From the NCBI RefSeq assembly GCF_000179595.2, contig NZ_JH556658.1:861954-895680 (forward strand): a stretch of 33,727 nt of DNA. The letters run 5' to 3'. This DNA is from Acetivibrio cellulolyticus CD2. GTDB taxonomy: Bacteria; Bacillota; Clostridia; Acetivibrionales; Acetivibrionaceae. The position numbers and the translations under genes are program-made. This document shows positions 6,604 through 21,543 of this stretch, piece by piece. Each line of letters begins with the position of its first letter. Positions within the stretch are counted from its first letter, which is position 1. The notes under the pieces were generated by a model that worked only from the letters and a program-made list of their open reading frames with translations, was not told the origin of the DNA and ran no database searches.

Positions 6604-6685
6604 AAAAAACCTCCCCAAATAATATTTATTTATTTCAATGAGATACGATGTAGGATTTTTTGATGTTATTGAGATGAATTTTGCC

Positions 6686-6730: not shown

Positions 6731-6944
6731 AGAGTGATAGAATCTATATACGCATATATTACTGACCTACAATGAACTTAATATATAATTTTTATATTGA
6801 TGTACATGAAGATTCTATGTTCTTACGAATATACTAAGGAAGATAAAAATAGGGATATAACTTAGCACACAGGAGGGAGGCTTTACAGGGTAAATACTGA
6901 AAACGAAAATATATAATTATAAAAATACTTTGGGAGGAACAAGA

Positions 6945-8390
6945 ATGAAAAAGCATCAGAAATTCATAAAAATAGTGACTTTTTTATCATTAATAACACT
7001 ATTGGGGACCTCACTATTTGTTCCAAGTGTATTTGGAGCACCATATTCATATGATTTAACAGCAACTGATACAGTTCTTGATATGGGAATTGGCTGGAAT
7101 TTAGGAAATACATTGGAAGCTTGTGGCAGTTGGATAAGCGGCACCTCGGTAAGCAACTACGAAACTGCATGGGGCAATCCGGTTACAACTAAGGCTATGA
7201 TAGATGGTGTAAAAGCAGCAGGTTTTAAATCCATACGTATTCCTGTAGCCTGGTCAAACCTTATGGCAAGTGATTATACAATCAACGCGGATCTTCTAAA
7301 ACGTGTTAAAGAAGTAGTTGATTACTGTTCAAGCAACGATATGTATGCCATTGTGAATATTCATTGGGATGGCGGATGGTTTGCAAATTTTGCAACAAAT
7401 TATGATGAATCTATGAAAAAATACACATCAGTATGGACTCAGATAAGCAGTTATTTCAAGGACTATCCAAAAAATCTGATTTTGGAATCACTTAATGAGG
7501 AAGGCTGCTGGGACACTATCTGGAATAGATGGAGCGGTTCAACAGGAGAAGATAAAACACGTGCATATAATATTCTTAATAGTATTAATCAGAAGTTTGT
7601 CGACATCGTCAGAGCATCGGGCGGAAATAATGCCTCACGATGTCTGCTGATTGCCGGATACTCAACAGATATTGATCTTACATGTGATTCTTGCTTCAAG
7701 ATGCCTACAGATACTATAAAAGATAAGTTGATAATTTCTGTACATTATTATACTCCATCTACATTTACAATTCTTACAGAAGACGCTTCATGGGGCAAAT
7801 GTGCAACTACATGGGGAACAGATGCTGAAATCAATCAGGTTAAAACTGATTTTAATAAAATGAAAACAAAGTTTGCAGATAAAGGATTCCCTGTCATCAT
7901 AGGAGAATACGGTACTGTAACAACAAATAAAGAGCTTGCCAGTGTAAGGCGCTACATTACAACGGTTTGTAAAACGGCCTATGACCTGGGATTCTGTCCA
8001 ATGCTTTGGGATAGTAGTGAGCATTATTCAAGAACTGAAGCTAAAATTAAAGATACTGAACTAGCGGCATTTTTCTATAAATATAAAGATGCTTCCCGTA
8101 TTACTATACCAACTGCAACCCCAACTATGACTACAACACCTACTGTAACGCCTAATGTAACGCCTACTTCAATAATTGTCTATGGAGATACTAATGGTGA
8201 CGGTAGTTTTAATGCACTTGATTTTGCTGCAGTCAGACTGTATTTACTGGGTATTAATAACGGCCCTACATATAGTGAGTGGAAAAAAGCATCAGACGTT
8301 AACGGAGATGGAAATGTCAATTCAATTGACTTTGCTTTAATGAAAAGTAAGCTTTTAGGATTAATCAATAAGTTTCCGGTAGAACAGTAA
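6945..8390 (+). CDS. Cellulosomal GH5 endoglucanase-type enzyme with dockerin I
   Basis: 481 residues. The signal peptide ends near VFGA (about 32). The GH5 TIM barrel spans about 45-385 and opens with GIGWNLGNTLEA, typical of clostridial GH5 cellulases. ESLNEEG carries the predicted acid/base Glu185 and IIGEYG the predicted nucleophile Glu321. A Thr-rich linker (390-410) leads to a type I dockerin (413-479) with calcium loops GDTNGDGSFN and SDVNGDGNVN. Likely an endo-beta-1,4-glucanase or xyloglucanase/mannanase of the same fold; specificity is not readable by eye. A TTG 15 bases upstream is in frame, but GGGAGGA (6932-6938) fits the ATG at 6945. The first dockerin repeat is longer than usual (NNGPTYSEW insertion). 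Confidence 0.92.
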   Translation: MKKHQKFIKIVTFLSLITLLGTSLFVPSVFGAPYSYDLTATDTVLDMGIGWNLGNTLEACGSWISGTSVSNYETAWGNPVTTKAMIDGVKAAGFKSIRIPVAWSNLMASDYTINADLLKRVKEVVDYCSSNDMYAIVNIHWDGGWFANFATNYDESMKKYTSVWTQISSYFKDYPKNLILESLNEEGCWDTIWNRWSGSTGEDKTRAYNILNSINQKFVDIVRASGGNNASRCLLIAGYSTDIDLTCDSCFKMPTDTIKDKLIISVHYYTPSTFTILTEDASWGKCATTWGTDAEINQVKTDFNKMKTKFADKGFPVIIGEYGTVTTNKELASVRRYITTVCKTAYDLGFCPMLWDSSEHYSRTEAKIKDTELAAFFYKYKDASRITIPTATPTMTTTPTVTPNVTPTSIIVYGDTNGDGSFNALDFAAVRLYLLGINNGPTYSEWKKASDVNGDGNVNSIDFALMKSKLLGLINKFPVEQ

Positions 8391-8469
8391 CTTTTAATGA
8401 TTGAAGGGGCGTAGGGTTCGCCTGTCAAACCGTGCTTGTTGAATTTGTTTTCTAATTATTTTATAGGAT

Positions 8470-8505
8470 AAAAGGCATAAGACTGTAATAGTCTCATGCC
8501 TTTTT
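8470..8505 (+). terminator. Terminator of the GH5 gene
   Basis: AAAAGGCAT and AGACT pair with AGTCT and ATGCCTTTT across a GTAAT loop, with one A-C mismatch. The run of T's continues after the stem. Confidence 0.8.
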
Positions 8506-8554
8506 CAATTTGAGGTTTTAACTTTCATTAAATCTGCCGGATACGGGTCATAAG

Positions 8555-8587
8555 TTGTTAAAAAATTGTGTGTTATTTTTTTAACAA
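8555..8587. promoter_or_regulatory. Rex operator (Rex box) upstream of rex
   Basis: TGTTA (8571-8575), six T's, TAACA (8582-8586), then A, matches the clostridial Rex consensus TTGTTA-N6-TAACAA except at the first base. A further TTGTTAA half-site lies at 8555-8561. The box ends 7 bp before the -35 hexamer of the operon promoter. Rex leaves such sites when NADH is high, so the operon should be derepressed under reducing conditions. Confidence 0.75.
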
Positions 8588-8593
8588 TAAGTA

Positions 8594-8622
8594 TTGACTT
8601 CAAATAATAACGGAGATATAAT
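8594..8622 (+). promoter_or_regulatory. Operon promoter for rex-adhE-hyd
   Basis: TTGACT (8594-8599), 17 bp, TATAAT (8617-8622). Transcription should begin near 8629, giving a leader of about 215 nt before rex. Confidence 0.75.
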
Positions 8623-8634
8623 TAAATCAATAAG

Positions 8635-8664
8635 ATTATATCGATATACTTTTATCGATATAAT
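8635..8664. promoter_or_regulatory. Perfect 12-bp inverted repeat just downstream of the operon promoter
   Basis: ATTATATCGATA (8635-8646) and TATCGATATAAT (8653-8664) are perfect reverse complements with a 6-bp spacer. The pair starts a few bases after the predicted transcription start. It does not match the Rex consensus, so it may be the site of a second repressor or a 5' mRNA hairpin. Confidence 0.6.
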
Positions 8665-8843
8665 TGCACTTATTAAAAGTAGGCAATAAAGTTTAAAATA
8701 TATGTAGTTACTTGCAAGGCTGCATTTTAAAGCTCATTATGAGAAGAAAAAAGATCATGGAAGGTTTAGAAATTTCTATACACATTACTTTTAATAGCAA
8801 AGGCTGACATTTTGCCTTTCGGGAAGGAAGGTTCAAAAAAACT

Positions 8844-9488
8844 ATGAGTGAAAGAGTTATCTCAAAACAAGCTCTTTTAAGACTACCATTGTATTTGAAT
8901 TATTTAAAATCGTTACCAGAGAAGGATTTTGAGAACATTTCTGCAACAACGATTGCTGCAGGCTTGGAATTAAACGATGTACAGGTTAGAAAAGACTTAG
9001 CCTGTGTAAGTAAAGGTGGGCGTCCCAAGTTAGGCTATGTTACTTTGGACTTAATAAAGGATATAGAGAGATATCTTGGATATGACGATACACACGATGC
9101 AATAATTGTAGGTGCAGGAAGGCTTGGAGGTGCTCTTTTATCATATGAGGGATTTAAGGAGTATGGACTGAATATTGTTGGGGCATTCGATACTGATGAG
9201 AAAAAAGTCGGTACTGAAATATGTGGGAAAATAGTATTTCCTATGAGCAAATTAAAGGAATTGTGCGAAAGAATGAAGATTCGTATTGCGATCATTACCG
9301 TTCCCGGTCCTGCAGCGCAAAAGGTGTGTGACATCCTTGTAGATAGCGGCATATATGCTATATGGAATTTTGCACCTGTACATCTTAAAGTACCAAACAA
9401 GATTTTGGTCCAACAGGAAAATATGGCAGCATCGTTAGCAGTGCTATCGGCACATTTGGCAGAGGCAATTGAGAAAAATGAAATTTGA
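8844..9488 (+). CDS. rex: Redox-sensing transcriptional repressor Rex
   Basis: 214 residues, the usual Rex length. The N-terminal winged helix (about 1-75) has the family signature VQVRKDLACVSKGGRPKLGY. The Rossmann NAD(H)-binding domain has GAGRLGG (90-96) and the Asp of GAFDTD (116). The C-terminal helix (about 195-212) is the domain-swapped dimer helix. Rex senses the NADH/NAD+ ratio and represses fermentation genes when NADH is low. It is first in the operon, 17 bp before adhE, with a Rex box upstream, so it is probably autoregulated and controls the genes after it. The ribosome site AAGGAAGG is 12 nt from the ATG, a little long. Confidence 0.95.
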   Translation: MSERVISKQALLRLPLYLNYLKSLPEKDFENISATTIAAGLELNDVQVRKDLACVSKGGRPKLGYVTLDLIKDIERYLGYDDTHDAIIVGAGRLGGALLSYEGFKEYGLNIVGAFDTDEKKVGTEICGKIVFPMSKLKELCERMKIRIAIITVPGPAAQKVCDILVDSGIYAIWNFAPVHLKVPNKILVQQENMAASLAVLSAHLAEAIEKNEI

Positions 9489-9505
9489 CGAAGGAGATGT
9501 AAAAA

Positions 9506-12115
9506 ATGAACAAAGCATACGAAATTATAGAAAATGTAGAAACACTTGAAAAAGCAATAAAGCGTTTGAAAGATGCGCAAAGCATTTTTGCAACGTATAC
9601 ACAGGAGCAGGTTGATAAAATCTTTCTTGCAGCTGCTATGGCTGCTAACAAAGCAAGAATCAGCCTTGCAAAAATGGCTGTAGAAGAAACAGGTATGGGT
9701 ATTGTGGAAGATAAAGTTATCAAAAACCACTATGCAGCCGAGTACATTTACAACGCATATAAGAATACCAAAACTTGCGGTATTATAGAGGAAGATAAGT
9801 CATTTGGCATTAAAAAGGTAGCAGAACCAATTGGTGTTATTGCAGCGGTTATTCCTACAACCAATCCTACATCAACTGCTATTTTTAAAACTCTGATTGC
9901 ATTAAAAACAAGAAATGCAATTATTATAAGCCCACATCCAAGAGCTAAGAATTCGACAATTGCAGCAGCAAAAATTGTTTTAGAGGCAGCAGTTGCAGCA
10001 GGTGCTCCTGAAGGAATTATTGACTGGATTGATGTGCCGAGCCTTGAACTTACAAATATGGTAATGAAAGAGGCGGATATAATCCTTGCAACAGGCGGCC
10101 CGGGAATGGTTAAAGCGGCTTACTCATCAGGTAAACCTGCAATTGGCGTTGGAGCAGGTAATACTCCTGCAATTATTGATGACACGGCTGATATTCTTCT
10201 CGCAGTAAACTCAATTATCCATTCAAAAACCTTCGATAATGGTATGATTTGTGCCTCTGAACAGTCAGTTATTGTTTTAGAAGGCGCATATAAAGAAGTT
10301 AAAAAGGAGTTTTCCGACAGAGGCTGCTATTTCCTGAACAAGGATGAAACCGAAAAGGTAAGGAAAACAATTATCATAAACGGTGCATTAAATGCAAAAA
10401 TCGTAGGGCAATCAGCACATACAATTGCAAAGCTTGCAGGTGTTGATGTACCCGCAGCCACAAAAATTTTAATAGGTGAAGTTTCAAGTGTTGAGCTTTC
10501 CGAGGAGTTTGCACATGAAAAATTATCTCCAGTACTTGCAATGTATAAGGCAAAGGATTTTGAAGACGCTCTTGATAAGGCGGAAAAATTAGTTGCAGAC
10601 GGTGGGTTTGGTCATACTTCATCTCTCTATGTAAATGCTGTAACAGAAAACGCTAAGATTGATAAGTTCGCACAGAGAATGAAAACCTGTCGTATTTTAG
10701 TTAACACTCCGTCATCACATGGCGGTATCGGTGACCTGTATAACTTCAAACTTGCTCCATCACTAACTCTTGGCTGCGGTTCATGGGGAGGAAATTCCGT
10801 ATCGGAAAATGTTGGAGTTAAGCATTTATTAAACATCAAAACAGTTGCCGAGAGGAGAGAGAATATGCTTTGGTTCAGAGTGCCTGAAAAGGTATACATT
10901 AAAAAAGGTTGTCTGCCTGTTGCTTTAGATGAACTTAAAAATGTAATGGGTAAAAAGAAAGCGTTTATTGTTACAGATACCTTCTTATATAATAACGGTT
11001 ATACAAAAGCAATTACTGATAAACTGGACGAAATGGGAATTATGCATAAAACATTCTTTGATGTAGCTCCCGATCCAACGCTTGCATGTGCTAAGGCAGG
11101 GGCTAAAGAGATGACAGCCTTCCAGCCTGATACAATCATTGCTATCGGCGGTGGTTCAGCTATGGATGCAGCTAAAATTATGTGGGTAATGTATGAACAT
11201 CCGGAAGTTGACTTTATGGATATGGCAATGAGATTTGTAGATATCAGAAAGAGAGTTTACACCTTCCCTAAGATGGGCGAAAAGGCATACTTTATTGCAG
11301 TTCCCACATCAGCAGGTACAGGTTCTGAGGTAACACCTTTTGCCGTTATTACAGATGAAAAGACCGGTGTTAAATATCCTCTGGCGGACTATGAGTTAAT
11401 GCCTAAAATGGCTATTGTAGATGCTGATATGATGATGAATGCACCAAAAGGCCTGACAAGTGCATCGGGTATTGATGCATTAACACACGCTCTTGAGGCA
11501 TACGCTTCAATGCTTGCTACTGACTATACAGACAGTATGGCACTTCGTTCCTTGAAAATGATATTTGAATATCTCCCGAAAGCGTATGACAACGGACAAA
11601 ACGATCCTGTTGCAAGAGAAAAGATGGCCAATGCCGCAACAATGGCGGGTATGGCATTTGCAAATTCCTTCTTAGGGGTATGCCATTCGATGGCACATAA
11701 GCTTGGTGCATTCCACCATTTGCCACACGGTATTGCAAACGCGCTTTTAATAGATGAAGTATTGAGGTTTAATGCTGTAGAAGTCCCTGTAAAAATGGGC
11801 ACATTCTCACAGTATGACCATCCGCATACACTTGCACGTTATGCTGAAATTGCCGATTATCTAGGTATCAAGGGCAAGAACAATGAAGAAAAACTTGAAA
11901 ACCTGATAAAAGCTATTGACGAGCTTAAAGAAAAGGTTGGCATCAAAAAGACTATTAAGGACTATGGTATAGACGAAAAAGTTTTCCTTGAAAGACTCGA
12001 TGATATGGTTGAACAGGCTTTTGACGATCAATGTACAGGTGCAAATCCAAGATATCCGCTTATGAGTGAAATAAAAGAAATGTATCTTAATGCTTATTAT
12101 GGAGGTGCTAGATAA
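9506..12115 (+). CDS. adhE: Bifunctional acetaldehyde-CoA / alcohol dehydrogenase
   Basis: 869 residues, full AdhE length. The N-terminal aldehyde dehydrogenase half (1-440) has catalytic Cys249 in FDNGMICASE and converts acetyl-CoA to acetaldehyde. The C-terminal iron alcohol dehydrogenase half (about 450-869) has GGGSAMDAAK (548-557) for NADH binding and iron ligands Asp657, His661, His727 and His741, and makes ethanol. The protein forms cytosolic spirosomes in other bacteria. It reoxidises two NADH per acetyl-CoA, the main ethanol route in these clostridia. AAGGAGATG precedes the start. The stop overlaps the next gene's ATG (TAATG), so the kinase gene is translationally coupled. Rex control fits its place behind rex. 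Confidence 0.97.
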   Translation: MNKAYEIIENVETLEKAIKRLKDAQSIFATYTQEQVDKIFLAAAMAANKARISLAKMAVEETGMGIVEDKVIKNHYAAEYIYNAYKNTKTCGIIEEDKSFGIKKVAEPIGVIAAVIPTTNPTSTAIFKTLIALKTRNAIIISPHPRAKNSTIAAAKIVLEAAVAAGAPEGIIDWIDVPSLELTNMVMKEADIILATGGPGMVKAAYSSGKPAIGVGAGNTPAIIDDTADILLAVNSIIHSKTFDNGMICASEQSVIVLEGAYKEVKKEFSDRGCYFLNKDETEKVRKTIIINGALNAKIVGQSAHTIAKLAGVDVPAATKILIGEVSSVELSEEFAHEKLSPVLAMYKAKDFEDALDKAEKLVADGGFGHTSSLYVNAVTENAKIDKFAQRMKTCRILVNTPSSHGGIGDLYNFKLAPSLTLGCGSWGGNSVSENVGVKHLLNIKTVAERRENMLWFRVPEKVYIKKGCLPVALDELKNVMGKKKAFIVTDTFLYNNGYTKAITDKLDEMGIMHKTFFDVAPDPTLACAKAGAKEMTAFQPDTIIAIGGGSAMDAAKIMWVMYEHPEVDFMDMAMRFVDIRKRVYTFPKMGEKAYFIAVPTSAGTGSEVTPFAVITDEKTGVKYPLADYELMPKMAIVDADMMMNAPKGLTSASGIDALTHALEAYASMLATDYTDSMALRSLKMIFEYLPKAYDNGQNDPVAREKMANAATMAGMAFANSFLGVCHSMAHKLGAFHHLPHGIANALLIDEVLRFNAVEVPVKMGTFSQYDHPHTLARYAEIADYLGIKGKNNEEKLENLIKAIDELKEKVGIKKTIKDYGIDEKVFLERLDDMVEQAFDDQCTGANPRYPLMSEIKEMYLNAYYGGAR

Positions 12116-12864
12116 TGAAACTTGAAAAAGTCATTGCTGTTAGAACAGATAAAACGGTTTTCAGAGATGAGGATAAGGCTATAAAGCTTTTCAGCAGTAA
12201 TTATTCTAAAGCCAATATATTAAACGAAGCTTTGAACCAAGCGAGAGTTGAAGAAACAGGGCTTAACATTCCGAAGCTTCTGGAGGTTACAAAAATTGAG
12301 GACAAATGGGCAATTGTGACCGAGTATATTGAAGGAAAGACTTTAGAACAGCTGATGAAAGAAAACCCTCATAAATACGATGAATATCTGGATCTATTTG
12401 TTGATATACAGCTTGATATTTTAAGTAAAAAGTCACCTATGCTAAATAAGCTCAAAGATAAAATGAAGAGAAAAATTTCTGAAACAGGACTTGATGCAAC
12501 AACACGTTATGAGCTCCATACAAGACTTGCAAGCATGCCTGATCATGACAAGGTTTGCCATGGCGATTTTAACCCTAGCAATATAATTATTTCAAAAGAC
12601 GACAAACCCTATATTCTTGACTGGTCACATGCAACACAGGGGAATGCAAGTGCTGATGCAGCAAGAACTTACCTTTTGTTCTGGCTTTCCGGCAATATTG
12701 ACAAAGCTGATAAGTATTTGAATCTGTTCTGTAAAAAAAGCGATACTGCAAAGCAGTATGTTCAAAAGTGGATTTCGATTATAGCAGCATCGCAGCTTGT
12801 CAAAGGTAAAGCTGTTGAAAGGGAGTTCTTAATGCACTGGATAGATGTTGTTGATTATGAATAG
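12115..12864 (+). CDS. APH/choline-kinase-fold phosphotransferase, target unknown
   Basis: 249 residues with the aminoglycoside-phosphotransferase protein-kinase-like fold. VCHGDFNPSNIII (147-159) is the catalytic loop with Asp151 and Asn156, and ILDWSHA supplies the metal-binding Asp169. A Lys near residue 24 (DKAIKLF) and EYIEGKTLEQL (hinge) complete the ATP site. The substrate cannot be read. Members phosphorylate small molecules, and some act on proteins. It sits between adhE and a hydrogen-sensor cassette, overlaps the adhE stop by 1 nt, and shares the operon with a PP2C phosphatase, so a role in signalling is plausible rather than antibiotic resistance. That is inference from context. 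Confidence 0.8.
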   Translation: MKLEKVIAVRTDKTVFRDEDKAIKLFSSNYSKANILNEALNQARVEETGLNIPKLLEVTKIEDKWAIVTEYIEGKTLEQLMKENPHKYDEYLDLFVDIQLDILSKKSPMLNKLKDKMKRKISETGLDATTRYELHTRLASMPDHDKVCHGDFNPSNIIISKDDKPYILDWSHATQGNASADAARTYLLFWLSGNIDKADKYLNLFCKKSDTAKQYVQKWISIIAASQLVKGKAVEREFLMHWIDVVDYE

Positions 12865-12877
12865 GAGGGTTTAAAAT

Positions 12878-13120
12878 ATGAAAGTCGCTATTTGTATAGG
12901 AAGCTCATGCCACTTAAAAGGCTCAAGACAGATAATAGAACAGCTACAGAACATGATTGCTGCAAATAATTTGGAAGAAAAGATTGAACTCTGCGGAGCT
13001 TTTTGCATGAAAAACTGTGTTAATGGTGTCAGTGTTACAATTGGAGATGAATTGTTCTCCGTAACACCTGAGAATGCTAAAAACTTCTTTGAAACGGAAG
13101 TAGTTAAGAGAATGAAATAA
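12878..13120 (+). CDS. Small thioredoxin-like [2Fe-2S] ferredoxin protein
   Basis: 80 residues. ICIGSSCHLKGS near the N-terminus and CGAFCMKNC (about 44-52) give the C-x4-C and C-x3-C pattern of thioredoxin-fold [2Fe-2S] proteins, like a detached NuoE C-terminal domain. It is probably a soluble one-electron carrier or adaptor for the hydrogenases that follow. The AGGAGGG ribosome site overlaps the preceding stop codon. A paralogue with the same SSCHLKGS motif ends the operon at 20063-20314. Confidence 0.82.
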   Translation: MKVAICIGSSCHLKGSRQIIEQLQNMIAANNLEEKIELCGAFCMKNCVNGVSVTIGDELFSVTPENAKNFFETEVVKRMK

Positions 13121-13160
13121 GTAATTCTTTGCAAATGCTAATTAAGGAGTGTAAATTTGG

Positions 13161-14831
13161 ATGACTGAATATCTTGTGACAAAAAATTCGAATTGCAAAA
13201 ATTGCTATAAGTGTATTAGACATTGTCCTGTCAAGTCATTAAAGTTTACCGATGGTCAGGCTCATATAGTGAAAGATGAATGCGTTTTGTGCGGCGAATG
13301 TTATGTAGTTTGCCCGCAAAACGCAAAGCAAATCAGGCAGGATGTTGAAAAAGCAAAACAGCTTATTTCTGAGAATGATGTTTATGTAAGTCTTGCTCCG
13401 TCATTTGTTGCATGGTTTCATGATAAAAGCATATATGATATGGAACAGGCGTTAAAAAAGCTGGGTTTTAAAGGTGCTGACGAAACGGCAAAAGGTGCGT
13501 TTATTGTTAAAAAACAATATGAGAAAATGATAGAAGAAAAACGCAGCAAAGTAATAATATCTTCATGCTGTCATTCAGTAAACACCCTGATCCAAAGACA
13601 TTATACCGATGCGATTCCTTATCTTGCTGATGTTATATCACCTATGCTCGCACATGCTCAGTTAATTAAAAAGGAGCATGCTGGCTGCAAGGTGGCATTT
13701 ATAGGACCATGTATTTCAAAAAAGGAAGAAGCCGAGAAATATGAGGGTTTTGTAGATGTTACTCTTACCTTTGATGAACTCGAGGAATGGTTGGGTATGG
13801 AAAACATTGCAATTGAAAGTACTGGTACGGAGTCTGAAAAAGGAAGGACAAAAAGTTTTCCAAGATCCGGAGGCATTATTGATAGTATGGATAAAAATGA
13901 AAACTATCACTATTTGGTTGTTGATGGTATGGAAAATTGTATAAATGCTTTAGATAATATTGATAAGGGTGAACTGGATAATTGTTTCATTGAGATGTCA
14001 GCCTGTAGAGGCAGCTGCATAAACGGGCCTGTCTTAAAAAGAAAGAACCATAATATTATTGGAGCCATACTAGCTGTCAATGAAAATACAGGTGCAAATG
14101 ATTATACAATTGCAATGCCTGATAGAAAAAGCCTCAAAAAGGAAATACGCCTTGAGGGCGTAAAAAAAATAATGCCAGGAAGTAGTGCCATTGAAGAGAT
14201 TTTAAAGAAAATGGGCAAAACCTCCAAAGAACAGGAACTCAACTGTGGAAGCTGCGGTTATGATACCTGCCGTGACAAAGCAATGGCTGTATTGACGGGA
14301 AAGGCCGACCTGACAATGTGTCTTCCTTACTTAAAGGAGAAAGCGGAAAGCTTTTCGGATACTATTATCAATAATACTCCAAACGGCATTATAGTGTTAA
14401 ATGAAGACCTTGAGATTCAGCAGATTAATATGGCGGCAAAAAAAATATTGAACCTGCCTGTTTATACAGATCTTTTTGGAAGCCCTGTTGTAAGAATACT
14501 TGATCCTATTGATTACGCCCTTGCAATTGGTAATGATGAGAAGTGTTATGACAGGAGAAAATATTTTGCCCAGTATCAAAAGTATGTTGATGAAACAATA
14601 ATTTACGACAAAGAATACCACATCATTATCATAATCATGAAGGATGTAAGTGAAGAAGAAAAAATCAAAAATGCGAAAATTAATCAGAGCAAAGCTGCGA
14701 TCGAAATAACAGATAAAGTTGTCGAAAAGCAGATGCGAGTAGTACAAGAAATTGCCCTGCTTCTTGGTGAAACAACAGCAGAAACTAAAATTGCTTTAAC
14801 TAAATTGAAGGAGACTATGCAGGATGAATGA
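13161..14831 (+). CDS. hydS: Sensory [FeFe]-hydrogenase with PAS domain (HydS type)
   Basis: 556 residues. Two [4Fe-4S] ferredoxin motifs (Cys12-22 and Cys41-51) precede an H-cluster domain. L1 is SSCCHSV (Cys136, Cys137), not TSCCPAW. L2 is GPCISKK (Cys184), not MPCTAKK. L3 is SACRGSCINGP (Cys282, Cys286), not ACPGGCINGGG. All cluster cysteines are kept. A four-Cys motif (Cys362, 365, 370, 387) may bind another Fe-S cluster. A PAS domain (about 395-495) and a helical tail end the protein. This layout is that of group C, putative H2-sensing hydrogenases such as HydS of Ruminococcus albus. It should sense H2 or redox state and signal through PAS rather than produce gas. Its last 8 nt overlap the phosphatase gene. 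Confidence 0.87.
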   Translation: MTEYLVTKNSNCKNCYKCIRHCPVKSLKFTDGQAHIVKDECVLCGECYVVCPQNAKQIRQDVEKAKQLISENDVYVSLAPSFVAWFHDKSIYDMEQALKKLGFKGADETAKGAFIVKKQYEKMIEEKRSKVIISSCCHSVNTLIQRHYTDAIPYLADVISPMLAHAQLIKKEHAGCKVAFIGPCISKKEEAEKYEGFVDVTLTFDELEEWLGMENIAIESTGTESEKGRTKSFPRSGGIIDSMDKNENYHYLVVDGMENCINALDNIDKGELDNCFIEMSACRGSCINGPVLKRKNHNIIGAILAVNENTGANDYTIAMPDRKSLKKEIRLEGVKKIMPGSSAIEEILKKMGKTSKEQELNCGSCGYDTCRDKAMAVLTGKADLTMCLPYLKEKAESFSDTIINNTPNGIIVLNEDLEIQQINMAAKKILNLPVYTDLFGSPVVRILDPIDYALAIGNDEKCYDRRKYFAQYQKYVDETIIYDKEYHIIIIIMKDVSEEEKIKNAKINQSKAAIEITDKVVEKQMRVVQEIALLLGETTAETKIALTKLKETMQDE

Positions 14832-15993
14832 TTTGTGCGTAGATTTAGGGTATGGAAGCCTGAATAAATTTGGTGAGCAGCTGTGTGGGGACATGATACA
14901 GGTAGTAAAAGACGATGATACTACAATTTTAGTTCTTGCAGATGGTCTTGGCAGTGGTGTAAAAGCAAATATCTTATCGACGCTCACATCAAAAATTATT
15001 TCAACCATGATTGCAGAACACATGAGCATAGAAGACTGCGTTAATACAATTATGGCGACTTTGCCGGTTTGTAAGGTAAGGGGCATTGCATATTCCACAT
15101 TTACAATAATTAAAATAACCAATAACGACTATGCAGAGATTATTCAGTATGACAACCCTACTGTAATACTTATCCGTGACGGCCAAAATTATGAGTATCC
15201 TACAGAAACAAAAATTATTTCAGGTAAAAAGATAATTGAGTCAAAAATAAACCTTAAATGTGATGATGTATTTGTTGTGATGAGTGACGGTGCAGTTTAC
15301 GCAGGCGTTGGACAGACGTTGAATTATGGCTGGCAGAGAGAGAATATCGTTGAATATATTGAATTTCACTATGATTATAGATTTTCTGCCAAAGCCATTG
15401 CATCTCTTGTGCTTGATGCCTGCAATAACCTTTATGCAAAAATGCCGGGTGACGATACCACTATTGCAGCTATCAAGATCAGAAAAAGGAAAGTAGTCAA
15501 TCTCATGTTCGGACCACCACAAAAGCCTGAGGATGTTAACAAAATGATGTCCTTGTTTTTTGCAAAGCAGGGAAGACATATAGTATCAGGTGGGACAACT
15601 TCAACACTTGCAGCAGCGTTTTTAGATAAGAAACTGGAAACTTCAATTAATTATATCGACCCAAAAATTCCGCCTGCTGCCAAAATAGAGGGAGTTGATC
15701 TTGTAACAGAAGGTGTGCTGACAATAAACCAGGTTCTTGAGTATGCAAAAGATTATGTAGACAAAAATACTCTTTACAATGAGTGGAGTTTCAAAAAGGA
15801 TGGAGCTTCAGAAATAGCAAAATTGCTTTTTGAAGAAGCAACAGACATCAATTTCTATGTTGGAAGAGCTATCAATCCTGCACATCAGAATCCAAATCTT
15901 CCAATAGGATTTAACATAAAAATGCAGCTGGTTGAAGAACTTTCAAAAACGTTGAAGCTAATGGGGAAAACAATAAATGTAAGTTATTTTTAG
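14824..15993 (+). CDS. SpoIIE/PP2C-type serine phosphatase with extra C-terminal domain
   Basis: 389 residues. The N-terminal 220 residues form a SpoIIE-like PP2C fold: LADGLGSG (Asp40), MSDGAV (Asp155) and PGDDTT (Asp210) are the metal-binding motifs. The remainder (about 230-389), starting FGPPQKPEDVNKM and including SGGTTSTLAAA, is a domain I do not recognise but have seen as conserved in shape next to sensory hydrogenases. It should be a cytosolic Mn/Mg-dependent protein phosphatase. It starts inside the last codons of hydS (ATGAATGA overlap), so the two products are probably made in step, and HydS is its likely input. In R. albus-type clusters phosphatase genes accompany HydS (family knowledge). 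The substrate is unknown. Confidence 0.85.
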   Translation: MNDLCVDLGYGSLNKFGEQLCGDMIQVVKDDDTTILVLADGLGSGVKANILSTLTSKIISTMIAEHMSIEDCVNTIMATLPVCKVRGIAYSTFTIIKITNNDYAEIIQYDNPTVILIRDGQNYEYPTETKIISGKKIIESKINLKCDDVFVVMSDGAVYAGVGQTLNYGWQRENIVEYIEFHYDYRFSAKAIASLVLDACNNLYAKMPGDDTTIAAIKIRKRKVVNLMFGPPQKPEDVNKMMSLFFAKQGRHIVSGGTTSTLAAAFLDKKLETSINYIDPKIPPAAKIEGVDLVTEGVLTINQVLEYAKDYVDKNTLYNEWSFKKDGASEIAKLLFEEATDINFYVGRAINPAHQNPNLPIGFNIKMQLVEELSKTLKLMGKTINVSYF

Positions 15994-16005
15994 AGGTGAA
16001 AAATT

Positions 16006-16491
16006 ATGAATGAAACATTTAATTTTAAAATGATTGATGATATCCTGTCAAAACATGGATTAAGTGAAACTTATATCATTGCAATACTTCAAAGTATTCA
16101 GGAGAAATATCGTTATATTCCCAAAGAGGTATTCCCATACCTTTCAAAAAAGCTTAATGTAAGCGAAGCAAGAATATTCAGTGTGGCGACATTTTATGAA
16201 AACTTTTCACTTGAACCCAAAGGTAAATATGTTATAAAAATTTGTGATGGGACAGCCTGTCACGTTAGAAAATCAATTCCGATTTTAGAACGTCTTAGAA
16301 AAGAGCTTAAGCTTTCAGATAAAAAGATAACAACCGATGATTTGATGTTTACAGTCGAAACCGTATCGTGTCTTGGCGCATGTGGTCTCGCTCCTGTAAT
16401 AACAGTTAATGACAAGGTGCATCCTGCAATGACCCCCGATAAGGCATCTGAACTTTTAAAAGAATTGAGGGAGGGAAATGCAGATGATTAA
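16006..16491 (+). CDS. hydC: NuoE-like [2Fe-2S] subunit of bifurcating hydrogenase (HydC)
   Basis: 161 residues. It has an N-terminal helical region and a C-terminal thioredoxin-like [2Fe-2S] domain with Cys80, Cys85, Cys122 and Cys126 (CDGTACH and CLGACG). It matches complex I 24-kDa (NuoE) subunits and the HydC subunit of trimeric electron-bifurcating hydrogenases. It passes electrons within the HydABC complex in the cytosol. AGAGGTGA lies 12 nt after the phosphatase stop. The 3' end overlaps hydB by 8 nt. Confidence 0.92.
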   Translation: MNETFNFKMIDDILSKHGLSETYIIAILQSIQEKYRYIPKEVFPYLSKKLNVSEARIFSVATFYENFSLEPKGKYVIKICDGTACHVRKSIPILERLRKELKLSDKKITTDDLMFTVETVSCLGACGLAPVITVNDKVHPAMTPDKASELLKELREGNADD

Positions 16492-18358
16492 GAATAGAGA
16501 AGAATTACAAAAAATCCGAGAAATTTATGCAAAGTATCTTCAGGCACAAAAGAAAAAAATACTTGTCTGTGCAGGTACAGGGTGTGTATCAAGCGGTGCT
16601 CTTGAGATTTTTGACCGTCTGGCAGAGCTTATTTCACAAAATGGACTGGACTGCCAGGTTGAACTTGAAAAAGAGCCTCATGATAAATCAATAGGTATGA
16701 AAAAAAGCGGCTGTCACGGTTTTTGTGAGATGGGACCGCTTATAAGAATTGAGCCTGAAGGTTATCTATATACAAAGGTAAAATTACAGGACTGCGAAGA
16801 AATTGTTGATAGGACAATTGTTAGCGGAGAACATATTGAAAGACTTGCATATAAGAAGGATGGTGTTGTTTATAAAAAACAGGACGAAATTCCTTTTTAT
16901 AAAAAGCAAACCCGCCTTGTATTAGATCACTGCGGGCACATTGATTCCACATCCATCAACGAGTATCTCGCAATTGGAGGCTACAGCGCGTTTGAAAAGG
17001 CGCTGTTTGACATGACCCAGGATGAAATCATAACTGAAATTTCAGAATCCAATCTTCGCGGACGTGGGGGCGGAGGTTTTCCGGCAGGTCGTAAATGGTC
17101 ACAGGTGAAAAGACAGAACGTAGAGCAAAAGTATGTGGTTTGTAACGGAGATGAAGGTGACCCCGGCGCATTTATGGATAGAAGTATTATGGAGGGCGAT
17201 CCTCACAGGATGCTAGAGGGCATGATGATTGCAGGTCTTGCCTGTGGTGCTTCTGAAGGCTATATTTATGTTCGTGCCGAATATCCAATGGCTGTTTCAA
17301 GACTTAAAACTGCTATAAAACAGGCTTCTGAATGTGGTTTGTTAGGTGAGAATATTTTAGGACGCGGCTTTAACTTCAATTTGCATATTAACCGCGGTGC
17401 GGGTGCCTTTGTTTGCGGTGAAGGTAGTGCTCTTACTGCTTCTATTGAAGGAAAGAGAGGTATGCCAAGGGTAAAACCTCCAAGAACGGTGGAACATGGT
17501 TTGTTTGATAAACCTACCGTTCTGAACAATGTTGAAACCTACGCCAATGTCCCTCTTATTATAAATAACGGTGCAGCCTGGTATAAAGCAATAGGGCCTG
17601 AAAACAGCCCAGGAACAAAAGCCTTTGCACTGACAGGAAATATTGAAAATACAGGACTTATTGAAGTTCCTATGGGAACAACCTTGAGAGAGGTAATCTT
17701 TGACATTGGTGGTGGCATGAGAGGCAACGCTGATTTTAAAGCCGTTCAGATTGGAGGCCCATCAGGTGGGTGTTTATCAACAGACGATCTGGATCTCCCG
17801 CTCGATTTTGACTCACTCCAAGAAGCAGGAGCAATGATTGGATCAGGTGGTATGGTTGTAATGGACAGCAATACCTGTATGGTTGAAGTTGCACGCTTCT
17901 TTATGAATTTTACCCAGAACGAATCCTGTGGTAAATGTGTACCATGCCGTGAAGGTACAAAGAGAATGCTTGAAATTTTAGAAAGAATTGTTGAAGGCAA
18001 AGGTAAAGATGGAGACATAGAGTTGCTTTTGGAACTTGCAGATACCATTTCAGCAACTGCCCTTTGTGGACTGGGCAAGGCGGCAGCTTTCCCGGTTGTA
18101 AGCACAATTAAAAACTTCCGTGAGGAATATGAAGCACATATCAGAGAAAAGAGATGTCCTACAGGCAACTGTCAGAAACTAAAAAGAATAACAATTGAAG
18201 CAGCTTTATGCAAAGGGTGCTCAAAGTGTTCAAGAATTTGTCCTGTAAATGCTATAAGCGGCAAAGTGAAAGAACCTTATGTAATAGATCAGAGTAAATG
18301 TATAAAGTGTGGAGCTTGTGTCGGAAGCTGTGCATTCCACGCAATAGTGGAGGGTTGA
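16484..18358 (+). CDS. hydB: NuoF-like flavoprotein subunit of bifurcating hydrogenase (HydB)
   Basis: 624 residues. Domains in order: a thioredoxin-like [2Fe-2S] domain (about Cys29, 34, 77, 81), the FMN/NADH-binding NuoF core with NLRGRGGGGFPAGRKW (about 190-205), an SLBB region, a [4Fe-4S] site (ESCGKCVPC and a later LCGLG Cys), and two C-terminal [4Fe-4S] ferredoxin motifs. This is the subunit that oxidises NADH; in trimeric enzymes it couples NADH and ferredoxin oxidation to H2 formation at HydA. An ATG at 16478 is in frame but only 2 nt from the AGGGAGGG site; 16484 has 8 nt spacing and is preferred. hydA follows after 2 nt. Confidence 0.93.
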   Translation: MIKNREELQKIREIYAKYLQAQKKKILVCAGTGCVSSGALEIFDRLAELISQNGLDCQVELEKEPHDKSIGMKKSGCHGFCEMGPLIRIEPEGYLYTKVKLQDCEEIVDRTIVSGEHIERLAYKKDGVVYKKQDEIPFYKKQTRLVLDHCGHIDSTSINEYLAIGGYSAFEKALFDMTQDEIITEISESNLRGRGGGGFPAGRKWSQVKRQNVEQKYVVCNGDEGDPGAFMDRSIMEGDPHRMLEGMMIAGLACGASEGYIYVRAEYPMAVSRLKTAIKQASECGLLGENILGRGFNFNLHINRGAGAFVCGEGSALTASIEGKRGMPRVKPPRTVEHGLFDKPTVLNNVETYANVPLIINNGAAWYKAIGPENSPGTKAFALTGNIENTGLIEVPMGTTLREVIFDIGGGMRGNADFKAVQIGGPSGGCLSTDDLDLPLDFDSLQEAGAMIGSGGMVVMDSNTCMVEVARFFMNFTQNESCGKCVPCREGTKRMLEILERIVEGKGKDGDIELLLELADTISATALCGLGKAAAFPVVSTIKNFREEYEAHIREKRCPTGNCQKLKRITIEAALCKGCSKCSRICPVNAISGKVKEPYVIDQSKCIKCGACVGSCAFHAIVEG

Positions 18359-18360
18359 TC

Positions 18361-20061
18361 ATGAATAGTAAACAATATATGACAATTGATGGAATTCCTG
18401 TTGAAATAAACGGAGAAAAAAATCTTCTTGAGCTTATTCGTAAAGTTGGTATTAAACTTCCTACGTTCTGCTACCATTCAGAATTATCAATTTACGGTGC
18501 ATGCCGTATGTGCATGATTGAAAATGAATGGGGTGGCTTGGATGCTGCATGTTCAACTCCTCCTAAGGCAGGAATGAATATAAAAACAAACACAGCAAGA
18601 CTTCAGAAATACCGTAAAATGATCTTAGAGCTTCTGCTTGCAAATCATTGCCGTGATTGTACAACCTGCAGCAACAATGGAAAATGTAAATTGCAGGATC
18701 TTGCAATGCGTTATAACATTAATTCTGTAAGATTTCCCAATACAGCATCAGAGCCAATGGTTGACGATTCTTCACTTTGTATTACAAGGGACCAGAATAA
18801 GTGTATATTATGTGGTGACTGTGTTCGTGTATGTAATGAGGTACAAAATGTCGGTGCTATTGATTTTGGATATAGAGGCTCGAAAATGAAGATATGTACA
18901 GCGTTTGACAAGCCAATTGCTCAGTCAAACTGCGTTGGTTGTGGGCAGTGTGCCCTTGCATGCCCGACAGGTGCAATTGTTATAAAAAATAATACCGATA
19001 AGGTCTGGAAAGAAATTTATGATAATAATACAAAGGTAACAGTTCAGATAGCTCCTGCTGTCCGTGTTGCTCTTGGCAAGGAGCTTGGCCTCAATGACGG
19101 CGAAAATGCCATTGGAAGGATTGTCGCAGCACTTAGAAGAATGGGGTTTGATGAAATATATGACACATCAACAGGCGCAGATTTGACAGTGCTGGAGGAA
19201 TCTGCGGAGCTTTTAAAACGCATTAAAGACGGTAACAATGATATGCCGCTCTTTACATCATGCTGCCCAGCATGGGTAAATTTCTGTGAGAAGCATTATC
19301 CGGAGCTTTTGCCGAATGTTTCAACATGTCGGTCACCTATGCAGATGTTTGCATCTGTTATAAAGGAACAAAATTCTAATTCAAGCAGGCGAGTAGTTCA
19401 TGTTGCGGTAATGCCATGCACGGCAAAGAAATTTGAAGCCGCACGCGAAGAATTTAAAGTCAATGGTGTTCCAAATGTAGATTATGTTATTTCTACTCAG
19501 GAGCTTATACAGATGATAAAGGAATCGGGTATTATATTCACAGACCTAGAACCTGAAGCAATTGACATGCCCTTTGGTACCCATACAGGTGCAGGTGTCA
19601 TATTTGGTGTTACCGGTGGTGTCACAGAGGGAGTACTAAGAAGAGTAGTTTCGGACAAGTCAGCCACATCCTTTATGACGTTATCCTATGCCGGAATTCG
19701 AGGTCTGGAAGGCGTAAAAGAAGCTTCCTTGATGTATGGTGACAGAAAGCTTAAAATTGCAGTTGTAAGCGGACTTAAAAATGCCAGCAAACTGATTGAA
19801 AAGATTAAAGCAGGCGAGCATTATGATTTGGTTGAGGTTATGGCATGCCCCGGTGGTTGTATAAATGGCGGAGGTCAGCCTTTTGTCTCAAGCGAGGAAA
19901 GGGAAAGAAGAGGAAAAGGTCTTTACAGCGCAGATAAGCTTTGCAGTATAAAGTCATCGGAGGAGAATCCTCTTATGATGTCACTCTATAACGGAGTTTT
20001 GAAAGGCAGGGTTCATGAATTGCTTCATGTTAATTATGCAGCAAATAAGGAGGCCGATTAA
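18361..20061 (+). CDS. hydA: [FeFe]-hydrogenase catalytic subunit (HydA)
   Basis: 566 residues. Domains in order: a [2Fe-2S] plant-type ferredoxin domain (Cys37, 48, 51, 64), a His-ligated [4Fe-4S] site (HCRDCTTC...C, 96-109), two [4Fe-4S] motifs (Cys148-158 and 191-201), and the H-cluster domain. The canonical H-cluster motifs are all present: TSCCPAW (Cys301, 302), MPCTAKK (Cys353) and MACPGGCINGGGQP (Cys496, 500). It reduces protons to H2. The frame is open 63 nt further upstream inside hydB, but GGAGGG at 18348-18353 serves the ATG at 18361. The C-terminus ends shortly after the catalytic domain, without the extra NuoG-like extension of some HydA proteins. Confidence 0.95.
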   Translation: MNSKQYMTIDGIPVEINGEKNLLELIRKVGIKLPTFCYHSELSIYGACRMCMIENEWGGLDAACSTPPKAGMNIKTNTARLQKYRKMILELLLANHCRDCTTCSNNGKCKLQDLAMRYNINSVRFPNTASEPMVDDSSLCITRDQNKCILCGDCVRVCNEVQNVGAIDFGYRGSKMKICTAFDKPIAQSNCVGCGQCALACPTGAIVIKNNTDKVWKEIYDNNTKVTVQIAPAVRVALGKELGLNDGENAIGRIVAALRRMGFDEIYDTSTGADLTVLEESAELLKRIKDGNNDMPLFTSCCPAWVNFCEKHYPELLPNVSTCRSPMQMFASVIKEQNSNSSRRVVHVAVMPCTAKKFEAAREEFKVNGVPNVDYVISTQELIQMIKESGIIFTDLEPEAIDMPFGTHTGAGVIFGVTGGVTEGVLRRVVSDKSATSFMTLSYAGIRGLEGVKEASLMYGDRKLKIAVVSGLKNASKLIEKIKAGEHYDLVEVMACPGGCINGGGQPFVSSEERERRGKGLYSADKLCSIKSSEENPLMMSLYNGVLKGRVHELLHVNYAANKEAD

Positions 20062-20062
20062 T

Positions 20063-20314
20063 GTGTTGGAGGTTAAAATTTGTATAGGTAGTTCTTGCCA
20101 TTTGAAAGGTTCTTATAATGTTATTCATGAATTTCAACATCTTGTTGAAGAAAACTCTTTGCATGATAAAATCGATATAAAAGCTAAATTTTGCATGAAA
20201 CAGTGTCAAAACAAAGGTGTAGCTGTAGAAGTTTGTAATAAAGTTTATGGTATTTTGCCTGAGAATGCAGAGGAATTTTTCAAAAATACAATTTTACAAA
20301 TAGTGAAAGGTTGA
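20063..20314 (+). CDS. Second small thioredoxin-like [2Fe-2S] protein, GTG start
   Basis: 83 residues, beginning (V/M)LEVKICIGSSCHLKGS. It is a paralogue of the protein at 12878 (shared ICIGSSCHLKGS; KFCMKQC in place of AFCMKNC; PENAEEFF in place of PENAKNFF). A longer ORF starts inside hydA, but AAGGAGG (20047-20053) sits 9 nt before GTG 20063, and homology begins there. Cysteines are in the C-x4-C and C-x3-C pattern. It closes the operon, and the two copies flank the hydrogenase block. It may be a subunit or electron carrier for HydABC. Confidence 0.78.
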   Translation: MLEVKICIGSSCHLKGSYNVIHEFQHLVEENSLHDKIDIKAKFCMKQCQNKGVAVEVCNKVYGILPENAEEFFKNTILQIVKG

Positions 20315-20318
20315 TAGA

Positions 20319-20362
20319 AAAGAGGAGTATTAACAACTTTGAAGTTGTTGATACTCCTCTTT
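20319..20362 (+). terminator. Terminator of the rex-adhE-hyd operon
   Basis: A 21-bp stem with one G-T wobble: the left arm 20319-20339 (AAAGAGGAGTAT...) pairs with the right arm 20342-20362 (...ATACTCCTCTTT), loop TG. A T-rich tail is included in the arm. It lies 5 bp after the last gene. The next 195 bp (20363-20557) hold no gene I can support. Confidence 0.8.
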
Positions 20363-20557
20363 CTTGTGGGCCCAGCATGGGAGCTCTATCGTCGATGTCA
20401 TTCAAACATAATTTTGATTACCAATTCTTCTGTACCTATGCCATTAGCAAAATTGCACATTATTTTTTGTATCACAAGCATGTTTTATTTAGTGTTTTTT
20501 TATGATATGCTAAATTTAATGTTAAAAAGTATAAATTAGTTTTTAGGAGGTCGCTGA

Positions 20558-21412
20558 GTGAATAAAAAATTAAGGATACTGGCTGTCTTTGGAGCGATTA
20601 TTGTAATATTAGGACTGACTGGTTGTTATGAAATGAGTAATGAAGAAGAAGAGAAGTTAAAAAAACTAGAGCAAAGTTATTCCGAAGCTTTTATAGAACA
20701 AGCGAAAATTCAATATGGTAAAGATGCAAACGTTTACCATATTTCTGCTGAAACCGAAGCTGTGTCCGACCCATTATTTGGTGCACTGGCTGATAGCGAA
20801 ACAAGAACTACAGGTAATTTAGAGGGTACGATTAGAATAGGCAAAGAATCGTTTCATGGCAAGTACTTTCCTGATTTAAATGAAATTTATACACAAAGAA
20901 ATATTAGGAAAATAAAAGATTCTTTAAAAGACTATTTTAGCTATTTGAATCTGAATATAGTTGATTTTTCAGTAACAAACAGTGCTTATGTGGATGATTA
21001 TTTACCAGATAACATCGTTTCTTATGAAGATATGTTAAAGGATAAGCGTTTCTTGCTAATAACTTTTTATGTAACAGGTGACCTCGGTAAAATATCCCCC
21101 AAAGACTTCTCTGGCTTGGAAAAATATTGGAATGAATATACAGGAATTGAAGGTGAGGATGTCGGAAGTATAAAATTTATTCAATTAAAAGATGCATTAT
21201 CCATAAATAAAGCAAGATATGCAACAGATAAGCTAAATTTTGGATACAATTATACAAATGATAAGTACTTACCTGATGATATCAAAAAAGAATTTGTAGA
21301 TGGGTGTAAAAAATATAATATTATTAGTTGCCTATATCTTAGCTGTGATATGACTAAAGATGAAGAAGGTAATATAAGGCATGAGTTGTTCTTTATGTAC
21401 AATCATATTTAG
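20558..21412 (+). CDS. Lipoprotein of unknown function, GTG start
   Basis: 284 residues. ILGLTGC (17-23) is a lipobox, so the mature protein is anchored by Cys23 on the outer face of the membrane. The rest is soluble, starting with an acidic Glu-rich helix (EEEEKLKKLEQSY) and continuing as mixed alpha/beta with no motif I recognise. The start is GTG, with TAGGAGG 7 nt upstream. It stands alone after the hydrogenase operon terminator, and its function cannot be inferred from its neighbours. Confidence 0.75.
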   Translation: MNKKLRILAVFGAIIVILGLTGCYEMSNEEEEKLKKLEQSYSEAFIEQAKIQYGKDANVYHISAETEAVSDPLFGALADSETRTTGNLEGTIRIGKESFHGKYFPDLNEIYTQRNIRKIKDSLKDYFSYLNLNIVDFSVTNSAYVDDYLPDNIVSYEDMLKDKRFLLITFYVTGDLGKISPKDFSGLEKYWNEYTGIEGEDVGSIKFIQLKDALSINKARYATDKLNFGYNYTNDKYLPDDIKKEFVDGCKKYNIISCLYLSCDMTKDEEGNIRHELFFMYNHI

Positions 21413-21473
21413 TTACCAAGGTTTTGTACAAACTTAATACTTTTAGACTCTCTGTAGTTTGTAAATGCTTAGC

Positions 21474-21487
21474 TAGAAACGTTTCCA
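21474..21487. promoter_or_regulatory. cre-like palindrome
   Basis: TAGAAACGTTTCCA fits the catabolite-repression consensus TGNAANCGNTNNCA with one mismatch. It lies 57 bp upstream of the promoter at 21544. It could be a CcpA or other LacI-family site; a chance palindrome is possible. Confidence 0.35.
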
Positions 21488-21543
21488 ACACAGGAGCAAC
21501 ATTATAAAGTTAATATTTATAGGCATCACTCTTTTGTTGGGCT

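Follow-up and report, generated by a model that had tools for sequence, protein, structure and literature searches.

The window analysed here, a 33,727-nucleotide stretch of the Acetivibrio cellulolyticus CD2 genome (G000:C8:861954-895680 in the 6.16-Mb genome), carries ten plus-strand genes between positions 8844 and 20314. They bring together a rex regulator gene, the alcohol dehydrogenase gene adhE, the hydrogenase genes hydC, hydB and hydA, the sensory hydrogenase gene hydS, and genes for a kinase, a phosphatase and two [2Fe-2S] proteins (Table 1). Ten head-to-tail genes with gaps of at most about 40 bp and several overlaps had been predicted from the DNA letters, and both this layout and the predicted gene order were confirmed by the coordinates of the open reading frames (ORFs) and by domain scans. 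The intergenic gaps were, in order, 17, -1, 13, 40, -8, 12, -14, 2 and 1 bp (a minus sign denotes an overlap), assuming an ATG start for hydA at 18361 and a GTG start for the last gene at 20063. The largest gap was 40 bp and there were three small overlaps.

The block had also been predicted to run from a promoter to a single strong terminator. The promoter part of this claim stood and the hairpin behind the last gene was far more stable than its shuffled counterparts (Table 1), but its T tail was weak and it was unlisted by the terminator scanner. Plus-strand promoter-like sites inside the block scored 9/12 at most. On both strands of the region 7500-21500, promoter-like sites (50, compared to 45.2 in shuffles) and terminator-like sites (7, compared to 9.2) were not above shuffles, and strong internal signals that would divide the block were not apparent in these scans. 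Because of the gene spacing, the promoter, the terminator and the absence of internal sites above the shuffled level, we infer that the ten genes form an operon that is read as one transcript. A riboswitch or other known RNA in the leader was rejected as a candidate, since no Rfam match reached the gathering score anywhere in the window; three matches in the leader (8380-8850) were far below it.

The domain scans also supported an operon-like block in which Rex and AdhE are joined by a three-subunit hydrogenase of group A and by a sensory hydrogenase with a PAS domain, encoded next to a phosphatase. HydA has a group A H-domain and is accompanied by NuoF-like and NuoE-like partners, HydB and HydC; its score with the NF040763 model, 684 bits, was under the cut-off of 765. 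Judged by its subunit content, HydABC would be a bifurcating-type hydrogenase, and bifurcating activity is predicted.

Table 1. Features of the ten-gene operon and its flanks (positions in the window)
Feature	Position	Strand	Evidence or remark
Inverted repeat inside the originally predicted Rex-box stretch	8555..8587	.	Arms 8555-8565/8577-8587; not conserved in four relatives
Promoter	8594..8622	+	TTGACT-17-TATAAT, 11/12; best plus-strand promoter
Operator-like array	8627..8658	.	Pair of overlapping 18-bp palindromes (TCAATAAGATTATATCGA, TCGATATACTTTTATCGA) at a 14-bp spacing; candidate divergent-Rex site
rex, divergent (second) Rex of the genome	8844..9488	+	NF003994 300.3 bits, cut-off 130
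adhE, bifunctional acetaldehyde/alcohol dehydrogenase	9506..12115	+	NF010378 1405 bits, cut-off 951
APH/RIO-like kinase, candidate adhE partner	12115..12864	+	PF01636 44.7 bits, cut-off 23.2; invariant G150 D151 N156 D169; neighbourhoods
Thioredoxin-like [2Fe-2S] protein 1	12878..13120	+	PF01257 27.9 bits, cut-off 24.8
hydS, putative group C (M2f-type) sensory [FeFe]-hydrogenase	13161..14831	+	Fer4, H-domain, FeS motif, PAS, conserved C-terminal helix
SpoIIE/PP2C-type phosphatase	14824..15993	+	PF07228 48.6 bits; conserved 167-residue C-terminal part without Pfam match
hydC (NuoE-like)	16006..16491	+	PF01257 162.7 bits
hydB (NuoF-like)	16478..18358	+	PF01512, PF10589
hydA, group A [FeFe]-hydrogenase subunit	18361..20061	+	PF02906 317 bits; TIGR02512 458 bits, above cut-off 406
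Thioredoxin-like [2Fe-2S] protein 2	20063..20314	+	43% identity to protein 1; own Pfam score 18.9, below cut-off
Terminator hairpin	20318..20364	+	-30.2 kcal/mol, z -7.5, 0/200 shuffles as good

The divergent Rex and a conserved array at the promoter

The original prediction placed a Rex box at 8550-8600, and this assignment was not supported. The arms of the inverted repeat in this stretch are separated by 11 bp, compared with 4 bp in a Rex operator. Matches to the canonical operator TTGTTAANNNNTTAACAA with up to three mismatches numbered 6 in the window, below the 8.0 expected from shuffles. The best copy of the canonical consensus in the proposed box, at 8570-8587, had two mismatches, and the best TTGTTAANNNNTTAACAA matches in the four closest relatives (G008, G009, G012 and G013) had four to five. 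The scan was made with the TTGTTAANNNNTTAACAA form, and the alternative TTGTGAANNNNTTCACAA (the TTGTGAA form) lay outside it. With a count not above chance and no such site in the four relatives, the canonical Rex box was ruled out as the conserved operator; a variant palindrome was conserved at the promoter instead.

Common to the window and these four relatives were TTGACTT, a TA-rich -10 (assigned by eye) and then TATCGATA-type boxes 14 bp apart. The boxes form palindromes, TCGATAANNNNTTATCGA, in which two positions per half differ from the Rex consensus. The resulting array, of the type TCGATAA-N4-TTATCGA, sits just downstream of the -10 and was found at up to one mismatch ahead of the operon in the window and in 4/4 relatives. 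It comprises two overlapping palindromes in the window, compared with four copies 14 bp apart in G013.

Membership of the operon's regulator in the Rex family was evident from its NF003994 score and from a match to the Rex structure 3wg9 in the PDB (E 1.7e-34). The claim that the block is under one NADH sensor calls for caution: a Rex-family gene heads the operon, but a genome search recovered two Rex genes whose products are 30% identical, and the operon's is the divergent one. Like the canonical clostridial Rex proteins (for example Rex_2471, with TTGTTAANNNNTTAACAA), it belongs to the Rex family and has the GAGRLG stretch, to which we ascribe an NAD-binding role. It differs from them in the region behind the recognition helix, presumably the wing, which reads SKGGRPKLGY rather than the usual GGFGQQGYGY found in the genome's other Rex, and in the palindrome upstream of its gene.

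The array also precedes a rex-adhE-kinase arrangement in G009, where no HydS was detected at E<=1e-80, and therefore tracks Rex and not the sensor. Since the motif was seen ahead of rex genes that lead adhE, hydC-hydB (L207 and L218) or other genes, it appears to follow the type of rex. Among the 30 rex upstream regions used to define the motif, 14 carried it at up to two mismatches, compared with 7 for the canonical operator, a comparison that is post hoc. In a held-out set of 22 divergent-type rex genes from other genomes, the array was present in 7 at up to one mismatch and in 8 at up to two; AT-rich control stretches gave 16/3000 and 27/3000, respectively, and the control is conservative because rex upstream regions had not been removed from these stretches. 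The canonical operator at up to two mismatches preceded 2/22 of the held-out divergent-type genes, and neither of the two held-out rex genes with a canonical wing carried the array or the canonical motif.

The kinase, the sensor and the modular make-up of the operon

The APH-type kinase had been assigned to the H2-sensing layer, and its gene neighbourhoods did not bear this out. In a survey of 391 genomes of the class, 94 kinase places were found in 89 genomes, and at least 75 of these lay within 1.5 kb of an AdhE gene with >=66% identity, a count that is a lower bound because a maximum of two AdhE candidates was scored per genome. Only 28 of the 94 lay within 5 kb of HydS, and the places divided into 55 with AdhE only, 8 with HydS only, 20 with both and 11 with neither. 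AdhE of the operon's type was present in 83/89 genomes with the kinase compared to 35/302 of the others, and HydS in 43/89 compared to 65/302. When 20 kinase loci were picked for the absence of a linked HydS, adhE adjoined the kinase in 19 (the exception was L195). In G009, the genome with rex-adhE-kinase, neither HydS (E<=1e-80) nor the phosphatase (E<=1e-50) was found. Seen from AdhE, the kinase was near 75 of the 123 AdhE places with >=66% identity that entered the adjacency count, from which those of about 50% were left out; many AdhE genes therefore do without it.

The kinase residues G150, D151, N156 and D169 were invariant in 32 sequences and correspond, we assume, to the catalytic HGD..N and the aspartate of a DFG-like motif. 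The curated APH resistance models were far from reached (NF033068, 23.1 bits compared to 205; NF033059, 20.5 compared to 400), and the gene should therefore not be read as a resistance gene. Taken together, the neighbourhoods favour the kinase as an accessory of AdhE over a part in the H2 sensor, with AdhE itself or a small molecule as candidate substrates. A literature search of open-access scope returned no paper on a kinase working with AdhE, or on an operator for the second Rex. The association of the kinase with AdhE, seen at 75 of the 94 kinase loci, offers a simple, testable lead on the control of AdhE in Clostridia.

HydS carries an H-domain (PF02906, 160 bits), an additional iron-sulphur (FeS) motif (PF04060, 41.8 bits) and a PAS domain (PF00989, 23.4 bits), the latter two above their cut-offs. 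The H-cluster cysteines C137, C184, C282 and C286 were kept in 117/117 aligned sequences, one pair of which (L092 and L168) is identical. These cysteines, the extra FeS motif and the PAS domain are shared with the group C (M2f) HydS of Thermotoga maritima, which has alanine at the position of the proton-relay cysteine C299 of CpI, where the window's HydS has Cys136. Cysteine occupied this position in 95/96 members of the window's HydS clade; in the other HydS clade (n = 21) it was cysteine in 11, alanine in 9 and serine in 1. In the literature, the proton-relay cysteine is given for 17% of sensory hydrogenases (PMC10055695). The M497 position is serine, as in the Thermotoga HydS (position mapped by eye). 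On these grounds HydS would fall within group C (M2f), and H2-dependent signalling is predicted.

The C-terminal helix of HydS (approximately residues 519-550) was among its most conserved stretches, and the start of the phosphatase gene overlaps the hydS stop by 8 bp; together, these features fit an output helix that would hand the signal to the phosphatase. The phosphatase domain matched SpoIIE structures, and D23, D40, D155, D210 and D211, presumably the metal ligands, were invariant in 36 sequences. Its last 167 residues (15490-15990) were strongly conserved and had no Pfam match at E<=1. A first count of HydS loci gave 118, duplicates included (two more without a full hydS had been dropped), and a recount gave 115 distinct loci; among the 71 distinct loci with full flanks, the phosphatase stood beside HydS in 70.

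Two clades of HydS were distinguished by their neighbourhoods. In the window's own clade (>=50% identity, 50 full-flank loci) HydS was linked to the phosphatase in 49, the [2Fe-2S] gene in 45, the kinase in 26, AdhE (>=66%) in 21 and rex in 21; HydCBA followed downstream in 7 and another hydrogenase in 35, which was of the TIGR04105 group B type in the 3/3 tested. In the other clade (<50% identity, 21 full-flank loci) there was no linked kinase, rex or window-type AdhE, and the phosphatase was present in 21/21. Here, HydCBA lay upstream of the sensor in 14 loci (L140-L143, L145-L152, L154 and L155) and an AdhE from another clade (47-50% identity) lay downstream of the phosphatase in 6 (L141, L142, L143, L153, L173 and L174). 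AdhE and HydCBA are thus joined to the sensor on two occasions, each time in another order. The operon has a modular make-up, with the divergent Rex, AdhE-kinase, [2Fe-2S]-HydS-phosphatase and HydCBA-[2Fe-2S] as modules, each of which also occurs apart.

The proposed comparison of gene order with other clostridia was carried out, and all ten genes were found in the same order in G008 (L137) and G013 (L138), with protein identities of 72-90% overall and 72-88% in G013. The same order was seen in G012 (L139), although adhE was not detected there and hydS is in two frames in its assembly. HydS (E<=1e-80) was present in 5/14 genomes of the family, 21/58 of the order and 108/391 of the class, the window's own genome included. 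A HydS tree was built from 66 rows (65 different), namely the loci numbered 137 or higher with a near-full hydS plus every third named locus. The window, G008 and G013 formed a fully supported group inside a 45-row clade of distant members of the class, and the same-genus G002 fell in the other clade with the tree's other genomes of the order and three genomes of family f38. The window's HydS thus groups with those of distant gut Clostridia and not with those of its own order. Lateral acquisition of the HydS cassette is likely; old paralogy followed by loss is a possible alternative origin, which the tree alone cannot separate from transfer.

As a side observation, a LysR-type regulator gene was present about 1 kb upstream of rex and on the same strand in 14 cassettes, and not in the window (for example L077:4137-5078 + and L094:4269-5192 +; Pfam was checked for L077). 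Its ORF cluster spans 34 loci. The clustering of neighbouring ORFs yielded mostly antisense shadows, and the two largest same-strand clusters were examined.

Proposed regulation, published data and alternatives

The combination of genes had been put forward as novel, a view that does not stand: it is already in print for Clostridium thermocellum and, as a variant, for Ruminococcus albus, and is shared by G008 and G013. In C. thermocellum, the genes listed for Cthe_0422-0431 are rex (0422), an aminoglycoside phosphotransferase (0424), a hypothetical protein (0425), an Fe-S protein (0426), SpoIIE (0427), a 24-kDa subunit (0428), an Fe-hydrogenase (0430) and a hypothetical protein (0431) (PMC3848806). 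This region (Clo1313_1799 and the genes downstream) has the same kinds of genes in locus-tag order as the window; Cthe_0425-0426 have been classed as sensory and Cthe_0428-0430 as bifurcating (Carere et al. 2012, PMC3561251). Furfural lowered the expression of all eight listed genes within the region Cthe_0422-0432 around adhE (Cthe_0423) and was tied to a loss of NAD(P)H (Wilson et al. 2013, PMC3848806), the response expected of a Rex switch. In a mutant that bears a non-coding change upstream of Cthe_0422-3, expression of these genes persists in hydrolysate (PMC3804516, PMC4236516); the authors do not decide whether Rex is responsible. Genome-wide DNA affinity purification sequencing (DAP-seq) in C. 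thermocellum used the canonical Rex, Rex_2471; the same paper notes Rex_1799 as divergent (36 and 34% to characterised Rex proteins) and reports that furfural and hydrolysate elicit a response from the Cthe_0422 homologue but not from the other Rex (PMC8457756).

The eight-gene cluster of R. albus likewise combines adhE, a sensory (group C) hydrogenase, a putative Ser/Thr phosphatase and a hydrogenase, and H2 sensing has already been proposed for it; co-culture with an H2 consumer reduced its expression 111-fold (Greening et al. 2019, PMC6776011). It differs from the window in its output hydrogenase, which is ferredoxin-only (group A1 in PMC6776011) and not the HydABC trimer. In the relatives tested here, the output hydrogenase was of the TIGR04105 group B type (3/3 tested).

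We consider it probable that the window holds an ethanol-plus-hydrogen redox-valve operon of the C. thermocellum type, with the divergent Rex acting on the array and HydS and the phosphatase sensing H2. At a low NADH/NAD+ ratio, the divergent Rex would occupy the array of TATCGATA-type boxes just behind the -10 and shut off its own operon; rising NADH would release it. AdhE would then burn NADH to ethanol, and HydABC would burn NADH and reduced ferredoxin to H2. HydS would bind H2 at its H-cluster and pass the signal through its FeS/PAS part and C-terminal helix to the SpoIIE-type phosphatase, which may act on a phosphoprotein encoded elsewhere. For a more specific version, in which a private second Rex has been split from the global Rex by its altered wing and by an altered operator, often arrayed with a 14-bp spacing, so insulating the AdhE-hydrogenase operon, and in which AdhE has a dedicated kinase, we put the chances at about even. 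In that case NADH would govern ethanol formation at the level of transcription, and a second control would act at the post-translational or metabolite level; the literature search brought up no test of the latter.

In favour of the divergent Rex acting on the array, the array pattern at up to one mismatch occurs at one place in the 6.16-Mb genome, ahead of the ten-gene operon. Several results weigh against this interpretation. A reversed control pattern occurs four times in that genome. Further sites at this level in G008, G009, G012 and G013 numbered 1, 0, 2 and 2, and the reversed control 2, 1, 3 and 2; the three further sites that were inspected were all within open frames. The motif was initially recognised by visual inspection of a subset of the data, the p values for the 30 regions are post hoc and there was one held-out test. 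In that test, 14/22 divergent-type rex genes lacked the array at up to two mismatches, and the motif therefore does not hold clade-wide; some Rex genes of about 48% identity (L133, L130 and L219) carry a TTGTTAA-like site instead. In published work, methyl viologen altered no [FeFe]-hydrogenase system of C. thermocellum DSM 1313 (PMC4676874), which argues against a strong and simple redox switch in this setting. On the supporting side, this operon is absent from the table of Rex_2471 targets, in which another iron-only hydrogenase operon is present; the table has 18 rows and is not the full target list, which is a supplement (PMC8457756). In both G008 and G013 another operator-like site lies at a distance of 19 kb, within a long open frame, and was therefore taken as chance.

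One alternative is control of the operon by the canonical Rex through the TTGTTAA-type sequence at 8570-8587, the TATCGATA array being the site of another factor or an element of the mRNA leader. That sequence lies upstream of the -35, is two mismatches from the clostridial consensus and reaches p of about 0.03 in this upstream region alone. The match is not above chance in the window, however, and the four closest relatives have nothing better than four mismatches. The 18-row target table of the Rex_2471 paper lacks the operon and the text of that paper never names Clo1313_1798 (PMC8457756), and the array tracks the divergent rex even in G009, where HydS was not found. We regard control by the canonical Rex as unlikely.

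Two further alternatives concern the signalling genes, and each seems to us rather improbable. The kinase and the PP2C phosphatase could be a matched pair of the H2-sensing pathway that acts on the same target protein; both genes are in the operon, the kinase is near HydS in 26/50 distinct full-flank loci of the window's clade and 8/94 kinase loci are near HydS without a detected AdhE. Against such a pairing, 55/94 kinase loci are by AdhE without HydS within 5 kb, the other HydS clade has the phosphatase in 21/21 full-flank loci and the kinase in 0/21, and in G009 the rex-adhE-kinase set is present, whereas searches at the thresholds applied detected no sensor and no phosphatase. Alternatively, HydS may no longer sense H2 and may be a redox reporter or a slow hydrogenase, with the phosphatase as a constitutive partner. 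The proton-relay cysteine, kept in 95/96 of its clade compared with 17% of published sensory hydrogenases, agrees with this idea, but the serine at the M497 position matches the Thermotoga HydS (mapped by eye), the PAS domain and the conserved output helix are kept, and co-culture with an H2 consumer strongly reduced expression of the R. albus cluster (PMC6776011).

The redox-valve reading, which we prefer to these alternatives, has some practical bearing. Ethanol production from cellulose is a prospective use of C. thermocellum and related species, and the operon holds an AdhE. If the divergent Rex with an operator of its own is the real switch, editing and testing should be aimed at the promoter array.

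Genes outside the operon

In the second HydS clade, 19/21 loci (L140-L155, L173, L174 and L176) carried a gene for a TnpB-like protein of 490-550 residues on the same strand, after the phosphatase or adhE (for example L146:11469-12941 +). The protein gave matches to TnpB/Cas12f structures in the PDB down to E 6e-10, and PF07282 fell just under its cut-off in the two tested. A search of the window's genome for a relative of this protein came back empty, a result that carries no weight. The RuvC-I aspartate, at a position assigned from the motif and read by eye, was replaced in 19/19 (serine in 15, alanine in 2 and glycine in 2). The RuvC-II glutamate was glutamine in 13, another residue in 4 and kept in 2, and the RuvC-III acid was kept in 19/19 (aspartate in 11 and glutamate in 8). 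In 18/19 loci the gene was followed directly by an element of 75-115 nucleotides (for example L146:12948-13023 +), which, on 14 aligned rows, folded into two hairpins and a pseudoknot with pairing in 94.6% of cells. Its covariation score was reached by 0/500 shuffles, a figure that is not a probability; the pseudoknot paired in every cell, with 2/5 pairs changing on both sides. No Rfam family matched the element at the gathering score in seven loci (L146 had weak sub-threshold matches), and a terminator-like hairpin followed it where inspected by eye.

From these features, the gene resembles one for a domesticated, TldR-like TnpB, possibly an RNA-guided regulator tied to hydrogen metabolism. 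In a literature search for TldR with hydrogenase, no such paper was among the matches listed. The gene and its RNA element may merit closer study than the operon in the window.

Within the window, a frame of 180 residues (22117-22659, minus strand) is a near letter-for-letter copy of the C-terminal part of a 994-residue transposase (25908-28892, minus strand), named by eye as of the Tn3 type, and a transposon copy or remnant therefore adjoins the operon. The stretch 25197-25760 resembles, by eye, a cut-off glucan branching enzyme gene. Three genes (747-2579, 3829-6687 and 6930-8390) encode C-terminal dockerin-type repeats, also recognised by eye, which point to a cellulosome-bearing organism.

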